From Neorhizobium sp. JUb45 (GTDB lineage Bacteria; Pseudomonadota; Alphaproteobacteria; Rhizobiales; Rhizobiaceae), in contig NZ_SLYW01000002.1 of assembly GCF_004343585.1 (NCBI RefSeq), positions 1 through 64,000 of the forward strand: a stretch of 64,000 nucleotides of DNA. Reading direction: 5' to 3'. This document shows, piece by piece, positions 10,033-18,065 of this stretch; the first letter of the stretch is position 1; every line of letters begins with the position of its first letter. Under the pieces are notes generated by a model that was not told where the DNA came from, searched no databases, and saw nothing but the letters and a program-made list of their open reading frames with translations. The translations under genes and the position numbers were made by a program.

Positions 10033-11001
10033 TTAATCGTCCGATGCAATGCTTTCCATAGCGGCATGTGATGGGAAGTTTATCCGTTCTTGCTCTGTGA
10101 CGAGAGGCAATTTTCGCACTTGTGTCTGGATTGCTCCAATGTATTCCCCCAGCATACCTAGAAATAGCATTTGGACGGCACCGAAGAAGAAGATACCTAT
10201 AAGGATTGGGGCAAGTCCGATCTCGAACGAGTTCCAAAAGACTAGCTTTGCGAGGAGATAGCCTAATGCTACGAATAGGCTAAGGCAGGCAACGCCGAAA
10301 CCGGACAATGTCATTATCCGCAGAGGCACCTTGGAATGTTTGGTTATACCCAACATTGCCATGTCGTACAGAGAGTAGAAATTTTGGCTTGTCACACCGC
10401 GCATTCTACGCGGTTGCGTAAAGGGTATGGTAGCGATTGGGTATCCGATCTCGCAAACGAGGCCGCGGAAATAAGGATAGGGGTCATCGAGTTTCCGCAA
10501 GACGTCTAGCACTACCCGATCAAATAAACCGGACCCAGTGGCGTTGGGAACCAACGGGACATCTGAAATACGGCCAATCGTTTTATAGTAGAACTTGCGA
10601 ACCGCAAACATGAGCGATGACTCTTCGCTCACCGGCTTTACAGCCATTACGGTCTTGAAGCCGGATTCCCATTTTTTAACAAATTCTAGAATGATCTCTG
10701 GTGGATCCTGAAGGTCGGATGCGATCAGCACAGCGGCATCCCCAGATGCTTGGAGTAGGGCGTGATAAGATGATCGAATATAACCGAAATTGCGGGCGTT
10801 CACGATCACGCGCAGATGAGGATCATGTGCGGCTCTGGCGCGTAGTATCTCTACAGTCTTGTCTGACGAGCAATTGTCGATGCAGAGGTGATCATAATCA
10901 TAGGGCAGAGCCGACATGACTGCAGCAATCCGCTCGCATAGCTCGGTGACGTTTTCCGCTTCGTTGAAAAGCGGCGTAACAATGCTGATTTTTTTTGTCA
11001 T
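10033..11001 (-). CDS. GtrB-like polyprenyl-phosphate glycosyltransferase (GT2)
   Basis: A 322-aa membrane-anchored GT2 enzyme, predicted to transfer a hexose from a nucleotide sugar to undecaprenyl phosphate on the inner face of the membrane. The N terminus KKISIVTPLFNEAENV and the ASDLQDPPEII motif (the D-x-D-like donor site) are characteristic of the DPM1/GtrB group. Two hydrophobic segments lie in the last third (around LSGFGVACLSLFVALGYLLA and LAPILIGIFFFGAVQML). The start at 11001 overlaps the GtrA stop by four bases, so the two are translationally coupled. The linked flippase and the membrane protein at 18.4 kb suggest a Gtr-type side-chain modification system. The sugar is unknown. 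Confidence 0.88.
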   Translation of the reverse strand: MTKKISIVTPLFNEAENVTELCERIAAVMSALPYDYDHLCIDNCSSDKTVEILRARAAHDPHLRVIVNARNFGYIRSSYHALLQASGDAAVLIASDLQDPPEIILEFVKKWESGFKTVMAVKPVSEESSLMFAVRKFYYKTIGRISDVPLVPNATGSGLFDRVVLDVLRKLDDPYPYFRGLVCEIGYPIATIPFTQPRRMRGVTSQNFYSLYDMAMLGITKHSKVPLRIMTLSGFGVACLSLFVALGYLLAKLVFWNSFEIGLAPILIGIFFFGAVQMLFLGMLGEYIGAIQTQVRKLPLVTEQERINFPSHAAMESIASDD

Positions 11002-11387
11002 GGCTTGAAAACATATCGGCTGTTGAGAAAGTAGGAAAGGAGCGCCAGTGGAATCAGGAGTATCAGGCCGCCAAGCCAATCGGCAATACCAAGACGGACT
11101 AATCCTCCAACGCCGGTGACGTTGACGAGATAAACAACGACATAGACCATCACGAACCGCGGCAGTTTTGTGTGGTCCTTGTCGGCAAAAACTAAACTGC
11201 CGATGCTTTTGAAGTTGAACAGCGTTCCAAGCACTGTAGCCACAGCGATGGCTGTGGCGAAGTGTAAACCGGCCCAAAGCCCGAGCACATAGACGCTGTA
11301 GCCGACAACCGTGTTTAGAACTCCAACCAGCAGGAATCTGAGAAGTCTGCTGGTCAAAAAATTGGTCATCAGGCTGTAGGTATCCAT
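10998..11387 (-). CDS. GtrA-family membrane protein (putative flippase)
   Basis: A 129-aa protein with four predicted membrane helices (LLRFLLVGVLNTVVGYSVYVL, HFATAIAVATVLGTLFNF, FVMVYVVVYLVNVTGVG, LGGLILLIPLALLSYFL) and the family ending SYFLNSRYVF. GtrA proteins are thought to flip polyprenyl-phosphate-linked sugars to the periplasm. It lies between the transketolase-like pair and GtrB with almost no spacing (7 bp after one, 4-bp overlap with the other), so all these genes are in one operon. An alternative start at 11369 (MTNFL) is possible; no strong ribosome site supports either. Confidence 0.88.
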   Translation of the reverse strand: MDTYSLMTNFLTSRLLRFLLVGVLNTVVGYSVYVLGLWAGLHFATAIAVATVLGTLFNFKSIGSLVFADKDHTKLPRFVMVYVVVYLVNVTGVGGLVRLGIADWLGGLILLIPLALLSYFLNSRYVFKP

Positions 11388-11394
11388 TGACGCG

Positions 11395-16014: not shown

Positions 16015-16182
16015 TAATCCAGTCCTTTGTGATTTGCTTCGCCAGATGACGAGCATTGAGATAGTGAAAAACCCGTTGGCTGTTAAGCGCTATCTGACAA
16101 TAATCAGGGATTGTAACAACAAAAGGGAGGTCTGTTTTTTGCTGCCCTTCGCAGGGTATGGGGTCGGAGGGCCGTACTTGTG

Positions 16183-17292
16183 TTAATTAATCTTCACGTG
16201 AGAATCTCTTCGGAACCCCTCGGTCGCTAGATCCTGATAACGACGGATCTGCATAAGTGTATGATCTCGAGCATCGGTTCCTGTTGCCACTGCCTTGCTC
16301 CACTCGACGATGTATTCCAGCGCATGTCCTAGGCCTAGCACCGGTTTCCAGCCCAGAAGATTTCGCACTTTCGATATGTCGAGTTTCAAGAAGCTTGCCT
16401 CGTGCGGGTGCAGTCGGTCGTCGATGGACCATGCTGCCTGCTGTCCCCACAACGAAGACATTCGCTCAACTATCCAAGCGACTGGTTTTGCGTCATCGTC
16501 ATTTGGCCCGAAATTCCAGGCCTGTGAAAAGTCGGCGCCAGCGTCGTACATGCGTTCAGCGAGCACGAGATAGCCACGCAACGGCTCCAGAACATGTTGC
16601 CAAGGACGAATGGCATTGGGATTTCTAATCATGACCGAGTCACCAGCTGCAAAAGCATTGACAATATCCGGTATTAAACGGTCTTTGGCCCAATCACCGC
16701 CCCCGATTACATTGCCGGCGCGTGCGGTGGAAATAGCAACGCCATGCTCGAGATAATTATCGGGGTGGAAATATGATGATCGATAAGCCGCCGTGATGAG
16801 CTCTGCGCATCCCTTGCTGCTGCTGTAGGGATCAAAGCCGCCCATCTGCTCATTTTCACGGTAGCCCCAGGCCCATTCGCGGTTTTCGTAACATTTGTCG
16901 GTTGTGACGTTGACAACCGACCTTACGCTTCCGCTTGCGCGCACCGCTTCCAGCAGGTTGACCACCCCCATAACATTGCTTGAATACGTGCCTACCGGAT
17001 CATCATAGGAAAGGCGCACCAACGGCTGAGCCGCCATGTGGATAACGATCTCCGGGCGAGCGGCGATCATCGCCTCCTTCAAGACAGGCAGATCGCGAAT
17101 GTCGCCTACCAGCGAGATCATATTTGTTCCGACACGAGCAGTTTCGAATAGCGACGGGGATGTCGGCGGAGTAAGAGAAAATCCGGTTAACTCGGCGCCG
17201 AGATCCTGCAGCCAGAGAGAAAGCCAGCTTCCCTTGAAACCAGTATGGCCGGTCAGAAAGACGCGCTTCCCGCGCCAGAAGTGCTGGTTCAT
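16183..17292 (-). CDS. rfbG: CDP-glucose 4,6-dehydratase
   Basis: A 369-aa NAD-binding dehydratase of the extended SDR family, converting CDP-D-glucose to CDP-4-keto-6-deoxy-D-glucose, the branch point to 3,6-dideoxyhexoses and branched sugars. Diagnostic features: [34 protein letters not shown] segment (here [20 protein letters not shown]), the [14 protein letters not shown]-x3-K site, and [19 protein letters not shown], all characteristic of RfbG rather than the dTDP-glucose enzyme. The ATG at 17292 overlaps the cytidylyltransferase stop by four bases. No RfbH-type 3-dehydrase is nearby, so the route probably does not lead to 3,6-dideoxy sugars. Confidence 0.93.
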
Positions 17293-18065
17293 GCCCACAC
17301 CTTCCATGGAGCCTTGCCGCGGCTCCACAAATCTTCAAGGTGGTGCTTATCTCGCAGCGTGTCCATCGGCTGCCAGAAACCTTGGTGTTCGTATGCGTGA
17401 AGGTGCCCTTGCGAAGCAAGCGTTTCAAGAGGCTCGTGCTCCCAAGGCATCTCATCGCCGGAAATAAGGTCAATGACCTTTGGAGAGAGAACGAAGAAAC
17501 CGCCGTTTATCATCCCTCCATCGCCCTTTGGCTTTTCCCGAAAGGAGGCGATGCTGTTATTAGCCTGAATGTCGAGGGCGCCGAAGCGCCCTGGCGGATA
17601 AGTAGCCGTTAGGGTGGCTAGGCGTCCGTGGCTTTGGTGAAACTTAACCAGATCATGAATGTTCACATCGCTTACGCCGTCCCCGTAGGTGAAGCAAAAA
17701 GCGTCTTCATCCTTCAAATAAGAAGCAACGCGTTTAAGGCGGCCGCCGGTCATGGTAGCCTCACCGGTATCGATCAACGTGACGCGCCACGGTTCGGCAT
17801 GTTGGTGATGCACCTCCATGCTGTTAGTCTTCATGTCGAATGTCACGTCCGACATGTGCAAGAAGTAATTTGCGAAATATTCTTTGATTACATAGCCCTT
17901 GTAGCCAAGGCATATAATGAAATCGTTGATGCCGTAGTAGGAATATATCTTCATGATATGCCACAGAATTGGCTTGCCGCCGATCTCGACCATTGGCTTT
18001 GGCTTAAGGTGCGTTTCCTCAGATATTCTGGTGCCAAGTCCGCCAGCCAATATTACAGCTTTCAT
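17289..18065 (-). CDS. rfbF: Glucose-1-phosphate cytidylyltransferase
   Basis: A 258-aa nucleotidyltransferase that makes CDP-glucose from CTP and glucose-1-phosphate. The N terminus [20 protein letters not shown] followed by [21 protein letters not shown] is the family signature, and [17 protein letters not shown] with GDGVSD provides the metal Asp. The ATG at 18065 starts precisely at this signature, so the longer in-frame extension upstream is not used. It is coupled to rfbG through an ATGA overlap. The pair commits glucose-1-phosphate to the CDP-sugar branch used by the operon downstream. Confidence 0.94.

Follow-up and report, generated by a model that had tools for sequence, protein, structure and literature searches.

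Split transketolases in CDP-sugar cassettes predicted to build C4-branched sugars for the bacterial surface

Introduction

What is a transketolase (TK) doing among the genes of a cytidine diphosphate (CDP)-sugar pathway? The question is raised by a locus in Neorhizobium sp. JUb45, within the 64,000 nucleotides analyzed here (contig NZ_SLYW01000002.1, positions 1 to 64,000, in full length referred to as the window), where rfbF and rfbG are found together with both halves of a split TK and a gene for a short-chain dehydrogenase/reductase (SDR). The original prediction, made from the DNA alone, was that the TK pair adds a hydroxyacetyl unit to the CDP-4-keto sugar in place of YerE, the thiamine diphosphate (ThDP) enzyme of yersiniose synthesis. 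Based on comparison with related loci, this central idea appears well supported, by synteny in 28 loci, the loss of two putative acceptor residues, an SDR-TK fusion, and the exchange of the SDR for an aminotransferase. We propose that the cassette probably makes a CDP-linked C4-branched octose, formed by a split TK that grafts the hydroxyacetyl unit and destined for the bacterial surface.

Gene content of the window locus

Family matches confirm the gene content that had been predicted for this locus, which is listed below together with a divergent gene upstream of rfbF.

18429-19874, plus strand, polytopic 481-residue membrane protein with 7 transmembrane-like segments, candidate GtrC/GT-C transferase
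17289-18065, minus strand, rfbF, glucose-1-phosphate cytidylyltransferase (TIGR02623, 481 bits, cut-off 300)
16183-17292, minus strand, rfbG, CDP-glucose 4,6-dehydratase (TIGR02622, 493 bits, cut-off 278)
15061-16014, minus strand, sulfotransferase-fold protein with an altered cofactor loop, GFEHGGN (PF13469)
14187-15071, minus strand, small-molecule kinase-like protein of the APH/choline-kinase fold (PF01636)
13118-14200, minus strand, extended SDR, proposed branch-ketone reductase (PF01370)
12306-13118, minus strand, TK N-half (TK-N), ThDP-binding (PF00456; best solved chain 6yak)
11395-12306, minus strand, TK C-half (TK-C), pyrimidine-binding and C-terminal domains (PF02779 and PF02780; best solved chain 6yaj)
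10998-11387, minus strand, GtrA-type membrane protein, proposed flippase (PF04138)
10033-11001, minus strand, GT2, GtrB-like polyprenyl-phosphate glycosyltransferase (PF00535; two transmembrane-like segments)

The SDR/TK-N and TK-N/TK-C junctions are one-base TAATG overlaps, as read in the DNA, while rfbF/rfbG and GtrA/GT2 share ATGA overlaps and the sulfotransferase and kinase genes overlap by 11 bases. The predicted tight overlap therefore holds around the TK pair but not over the full length of the operon, because a gap of 168 bases lies between rfbG and the next gene, that of the sulfotransferase. The GT2 gene starts with the ATG at 11001 rather than in a longer TTG frame, and the TTG start of the SDR at 14200 is unsure.

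Recurrence of the cassette

A pattern scan for the TK C-half covered 84,980 species, with one genome per species, and the best 80 of 412 confirmed relatives were used. These comprise 16 cassettes with at least 52% identity to the window's C-half (L001-L016, 77-52%), a related class of four loci (L017-L020, 42-41%), and a comparison set of 60 more distant split TKs (L021-L080, at most 39%). Further searches covered an order sample of 394 genomes and a family sample of 398, both even draws from larger groups, as well as 150 relatives including the window's own genome. Three of the 150 relatives were positive: the window's own genome, G123 (47%), and G107 (42%); the 20 same-genus genomes among the relatives listed gave no match to the TK C-half. 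In the family of Paraburkholderia humisilvae (G155), 10 of the 398 sampled genomes encode the C-half at E <=1e-60, and rfbF and rfbG lie near the TK in all 10. Some of these were already known, as G573 is counted as L004 and G155 as L002. Plasmid records add cassettes from Methylovirgula sp. HY1 and Paenibacillus cellulosilyticus. The latter was found using a TK half alone; as the query for the former contained rfbF/rfbG, that record does not count as separate evidence linking the TK to these genes. The collection thus consists of 28 cassettes: the window, L001-L016, G123, eight new family-sample genomes, and the two plasmids. L017-L020 and G107 were kept out of it.

In 26 of the 28 cassettes, the TK locus also contains rfbF and an rfbG-type dehydratase gene. 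The remaining two are L007, with rfbG elsewhere in its genome, and L014, a 4.2-kb contig with neither gene. The dehydratase of L005 fits TIGR02622 best, with a score under the cut-off. The order among the first 16 loci is rfbF-rfbG-X-SDR-TK-N-TK-C, followed in some by gtrA and GT2, with exceptions in L005, L007-L011, L014, and L016; in L016, a distant SDR is accompanied by an FkbM gene. Cassettes occur in Pseudomonadota, Bacteroidota, Verrucomicrobiota, Acidobacteriota (as placed in the tree), and, in the case of Paenibacillus, Bacillota. Such recurrence across phyla means that the arrangement is not accidental.

We also compared the TKs in a tree of 49 rows, built from split TKs and the DXS of the window's genome, to the exclusion of unsplit TKs and of the later family and plasmid loci. 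Within this scope, the cassette TKs do not group with ordinary pentose-phosphate or terpenoid enzymes, an outcome in agreement with the original prediction. A 17-row cassette clade has a Shimodaira-Hasegawa-like approximate likelihood ratio test value of 98, which becomes 89 once G123 is added. Eleven rows of one of the two cassette types described below (type B), together with L008, form a single clade (98), with G123 apart. This clade mixes Rhizobiaceae, Nitrobacteraceae, Burkholderiaceae, Alcaligenaceae, Acidobacteriota, and Verrucomicrobiota, a mixture that points to horizontal spread.

Three sets of records in these searches are of separate note. L009, titled Bordetella parapertussis, is a metagenome bin with a cassette region much like that of Zwartia (L011); its species label looks doubtful. 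Annotated rfbF/rfbG genes that share about 65% of their DNA letters with the window's are found in two plasmid records of Salmonella enterica. A 33% identical TK C-half occurs in small records titled Listeria phage.

Active-site residues of the split transketolase

Residues are numbered by Escherichia coli TK, in which the catalytic positions are His and Glu residues and the acceptor and phosphate ligands are His461, Asp469, and Arg520. All cassettes, the window's included, keep the equivalents of His26, His66, His100, His261, His473, and Glu411. At the position of His461, by contrast, all 28 have Gly, and at that of Asp469 they have Gln, Leu, or Ala; for the two plasmid rows, these residues were read straight from the sequences. 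In the window's C-half, the positions of His461, Asp469, and Arg520 are occupied by G100, Q108, and K158. Both acceptor residues are kept in all 60 of the more distant split TKs, including L026, which has Ala at the His473 column and Lys at Arg520, and they are retained as well in the Carboxydothermus split TK and in the separate canonical TK of the window's genome. At the bit thresholds used, rfbF, rfbG, and the SDR were found in the examined DNA of none of these 60 loci. Judged by its predicted acceptor site, the cassette TK is not an ordinary transketolase.

The Arg358 and Ser385 equivalents, presumably phosphate ligands, are kept in most cassettes (G948 has Arg in place of Ser); at the Arg520 position, all except G123 have Lys. 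The donor may thus still be a phosphorylated ketose. The ThDP cofactor motif, GDG, reads SDG in 26 of 28 cassettes and is GDG in G948 and the Paenibacillus fusion. As SDG also occurs in L017-L020, L021, L028, and L036, it was dropped as a cassette signature. One TAA was flagged in the search match to the G948 C-half, yet a complete 295-residue frame is present.

The split TKs of the related class (halves at 4015-5704 in L017 and 9189-10897 in L019) include one, in L020, that lies among URO-D-family, SDR, and Gfo/Idh genes. In these loci, TKs of this class perhaps serve in the breakdown of sugars.

Two cassette types

The cassettes divide by the genes that accompany the core. Type A, with RfbH, accounts for 11 of the 28 (L012-L016, G861, G736, G895, G948, G889, and Methylovirgula), and the RfbH proteins of L012-L016 all score above the NF011936 cut-off. 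Type B, with the sulfotransferase/kinase pair, accounts for 14 (the window, L001-L007, L009-L011, G123, G707, and G740). Three cassettes lack both (L008, G844, and Paenibacillus), and in the locus DNA examined none of the 28 has RfbH together with the pair, which predicts two classes of sugar. A 117-bit match to RfbH in L011 is a WecE-type transaminase. The original prediction that no RfbH-type dehydrase follows rfbF and rfbG was extended to the whole of the window's genome, where an L013 RfbH query gives a single 25-bit match. Whole-genome searches in other type B genomes gave no match at E 1e-20 in G154 and at most 110 bits in G155 and G156.

Sulfation, which the original prediction had suggested as a further modification, is now doubtful, based on the altered cofactor loop and the lack of a detectable adenosine 5'-phosphosulfate (APS) kinase in the window's genome. 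The sulfotransferase fold of the 15061-16014 protein was confirmed. However, the protein does not have the canonical 5' phosphosulfate-binding loop for 3'-phosphoadenosine 5'-phosphosulfate (PAPS); its loop reads GFEHGGN. GFEHGGN is invariant in all nine aligned sulfotransferases and is also found in L004 and L087; the alignment includes 8 of the 10 type B proteins of L001-L011, with L004 omitted and the L005 gene containing unknown bases. Two models detected no APS kinase in the window's genome; among four other type B genomes, G154 has a 27.8-bit match and G155, G156, and G150 have clear matches. In the kinase-like protein, the HGD, N, and DWED positions are invariant. The type B pair could carry out new chemistry.

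The reductase position

A window-type SDR, at least 41% identical to that of the window or of Photorhabdus, is encoded in 21 of the 28 cassettes, and a more distant SDR in five (L016, G895, G123, Methylovirgula, and Paenibacillus). In L008 and G948, no SDR is in place. Within the order sample, the Photorhabdus SDR is found in one of 394 genomes, its own. The window SDR contains SSGAVYG and YGLGK but lacks the dehydratase TD motif that RfbG has.

The original prediction called this enzyme a YerF-type reductase. YerE-type ThDP enzymes adjoin YerF-like SDRs in two (L110 and L112) of six RfbH-bearing Enterobacterales loci fetched, drawn from ten RfbH-bearing genomes among the 394; the scan for YerE-type domains covered these two loci. 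The SSGAVYG of the window SDR is much like that of the YerF-like SDRs, but the window SDR is 24-25% identical to them (35-48 bits), compared with 44% between the two YerF-like SDRs themselves. A close relationship to YerF was therefore rejected; no orthology is apparent.

Two cassettes differ at this position. Paenibacillus has a single 635-residue protein that joins an SDR to TK-N, and its gene comes after rfbF, rfbG, and a C-methyltransferase gene. In G948, the SDR position is occupied by a 551-residue DegT aminotransferase protein, and a formyltransferase gene (PF00551 and PF18216) adjoins TK-C on the other strand. Both cases fit a TK-made branch ketone that is reduced in most cassettes and aminated in one.

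Apart from the cassettes, the L112 locus (6112-11861) encodes the YerE-type enzyme and the YerF-like SDR together with DdhA/B/C/D homologs, a member of the acetaldehyde dehydrogenase family, and another SDR, which shares about 30% identity with that of the cassette. This locus perhaps makes a longer-branched sugar.

Proposed pathway and alternatives

In the pathway we propose, RfbF and RfbG would form CDP-4-keto-6-deoxyglucose, as predicted from their curated families. In type A, RfbH (likewise a curated family) would first take off the 3-hydroxyl, which would stay in place in type B, including the window. With a ketose or hydroxypyruvate as donor, the ThDP-dependent split TK would then attach a hydroxyacetyl (glycolaldehyde) unit at the C4 ketone, which would become a tertiary alcohol bearing this arm. 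The SDR would reduce the ketone of the arm and so produce a 1,2-dihydroxyethyl group. The predicted products are 3,6-dideoxy-4-C-(1,2-dihydroxyethyl)hexose for type A and 6-deoxy-4-C-(1,2-dihydroxyethyl)hexose for the window, the latter possibly modified further by the kinase-like and sulfotransferase-fold proteins.

By their gene families, GT2 would load the sugar on undecaprenyl phosphate, GtrA would flip it, and a GT-C protein, perhaps that of 18429-19874, would attach it to a polysaccharide. Of these Gtr-system parts, GtrA and GT2 have family matches in the window, whereas the polytopic protein matches no family in Pfam or NCBIfam; in L002, L004, L005, and L006, GT2 is followed by polytopic proteins with 512-775 residues. 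The three together suggest Gtr-type side-chain modification. Close GT2 homologs occur beside the TK pair in some cassettes only, and many other loci lack close GtrA and GT2 homologs.

Several observations weigh against the proposed pathway. L017-L020 and G107 also lack the His461 and Asp469 equivalents, with no rfbF/rfbG in the DNA examined (a 10.9-kb contig for G107), so the loss marks a wider group and not this pathway alone. The donor cannot be read from the sequence, because Arg358 and Ser385 are mostly kept while Arg520 is mostly Lys. Clearly different SDR subfamilies occupy the same place, so that the assignment as reductase is based on gene position and the fusion. The L008 locus has no SDR. 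Descent and transfer link the cassettes, which therefore do not amount to 28 independent cases. At the thresholds used, 11 of 12 Photorhabdus genomes have neither RfbH nor a cassette TK. An O-antigen sugar of the predicted type A kind, with a 1,2-dihydroxyethyl branch, may occur in Photorhabdus, but the literature searches did not show it and it is not used as evidence.

One alternative is that the TK acts on the CDP-keto sugar with other chemistry, at another carbon, with another donor, or with an SDR that epimerizes or acts before it, so that the final sugar is not the 4-C-(1,2-dihydroxyethyl) octose. Regiochemistry, like the donor, is not legible in the sequence, and the variety of SDR subfamilies and the C-methyltransferase of the Paenibacillus cluster would suit this possibility. 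We nevertheless consider it unlikely, since RfbG makes a C4 ketone and an aminotransferase at the SDR position fits a ketone left on the branch; moreover, YerE uses a 4-keto sugar, according to the portion of a 2025 review that treats it (PMC12247030).

An ordinary enzyme of pentose-phosphate type, supplying a precursor such as a heptose precursor to the same polysaccharide, is a very improbable reading of the TK halves. They are genuine transketolase homologs with the Carboxydothermus split TK as best solved-structure match, but they form a separate clade among split TKs, have lost the His and Asp kept in all 60 distant relatives, and coexist in the window's genome with a separate canonical TK; in one relative, the N-half is fused to an SDR. 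Just as improbable is a locus of two independent modules, in which rfbF/rfbG lead to a 6-deoxy sugar and TK and SDR to an unrelated small decorating metabolite. Such a division might explain why rfbF/rfbG are on the opposite strand from the TK pair in L009-L011 (downstream of it) and G948, and why the sulfotransferase/kinase genes of G123 are on the opposite strand from both. It does not account for the association of rfbF/rfbG with the TK pair across several phyla, and family searches found no second nucleotidyltransferase in the window's core cassette. Bradyrhizose, an inositol-fused C10 sugar, was also considered as a product and dropped; the main text of PMC4743980 has no mention of transketolase, CDP, or rfbF.

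Transfer of a hydroxyacetyl unit to C4 is thus the reading we prefer. It is possible, and we suggest this tentatively, that the cassettes represent an undescribed family of surface-sugar pathways, horizontally spread over several phyla, in which a repurposed split TK branches CDP-4-keto sugars, RfbH or the sulfotransferase-fold/kinase pair sets the fate of C3 and its hydroxyl, and the SDR or an aminotransferase with formyltransferase sets that of the branch ketone, with the type B sulfotransferase-fold protein and kinase performing PAPS-independent chemistry.

Genomic surroundings

The cassette neighborhood is a polysaccharide locus, which also encodes FkbM-type proteins and the following:

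30060-31046, Gmd-like protein (413 bits, cut-off 415)
29085-30047, second SDR
28281-29066, ABC-2 permease
27049-28284, Wzt/TagH-like ATPase

G+C content drops to 47-50% at 18001-28000, compared with 57-65% past 34000, and transposase genes are located at 8309-9847 (rve/HTH_21) and 44153-45709 (ISL3). Based on the low G+C and the transposase genes, the polysaccharide locus looks acquired. Elsewhere in the window are a high-G+C open frame of 3378 residues (33621-43757, minus strand) and, at 56-1738, a protein ending in a C-terminal DUF6892 domain.

Comparison with known systems

ThDP-made C-branched nucleotide sugars are already known; a TK step for surface polysaccharides was not found described in the open-licence literature searched, in which no title or abstract assigns a TK to a branched sugar of lipopolysaccharide, and a report may exist elsewhere. 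Ketone-accepting TKs are wanted as catalysts for chiral tertiary alcohols, and the cassettes would be a second reservoir of them beside the Streptomycetes. Their predicted substrate, CDP-4-keto-deoxyglucose, could be made enzymatically with RfbF and RfbG. The reading also yields predicted sugar structures for members of several phyla, among which is a group with small genomes (1.9-2.0 Mb) in the family sample.

A proposed chemical precedent is in Streptomyces. The relevant sections of PMC12247030 describe hydroxyacetyl transfer by a TK as proposed in miharamycin and amipurimycin synthesis, and list 13 putative ketone-accepting TK sequences, identified via gene-cluster context, all split-gene, all from Streptomycetes, and none characterized in vitro. 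The cassette TKs share the split-gene architecture and the proposed hydroxyacetyl transfer to a keto sugar. They differ in belonging to CDP-sugar loci of several phyla, part of them with Gtr-type glycosyltransferases, rather than to antibiotic clusters.

AviB1/AviB2-type pairs of avilamycin and paulomycin synthesis are likewise two-protein ThDP enzymes that form a C4 branch on a deoxysugar, with later ketoreduction, as outlined in part of PMC4753412. In contrast to the cassette TKs, these are alpha-ketoacid dehydrogenase-like and transfer acetyl from pyruvate to antibiotic sugars, and they are placed in another ThDP superfamily in the corresponding part of PMC12247030. The split TK of Carboxydothermus hydrogenoformans (6yaj/6yak) has the same two-chain architecture and provides the best sequence matches of solved structure, but retains both acceptor residues, His and Asp, which are missing from the cassette TKs.

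The pathway to yersiniose A and B (DdhA, DdhB, DdhC/DdhD, YerE, and a reductase) follows the same logic, with a CDP-glucose route, a ThDP enzyme that converts a CDP-4-keto deoxy sugar into a tertiary alcohol, and subsequent reduction of the ketone. YerE, as covered in PMC12247030 in its account of this enzyme, is a decarboxylase-superfamily enzyme acting on pyruvate, while the cassettes encode a split TK with a predicted hydroxyacetyl arm. The domains differ accordingly, with PF02776/PF00205/PF02775 in the YerE-type proteins of L110 and L112 and PF00456 plus PF02779/PF02780 in the cassettes, as do the SDRs (see above), and type B dispenses with RfbH. The relationship is visible in Photorhabdus caribbeanensis, where genes for a DdhD-type reductase, ddhA, ddhB, ddhC, the SDR, TK-N, and TK-C reproduce the yersiniose layout with YerE exchanged for the TK pair.

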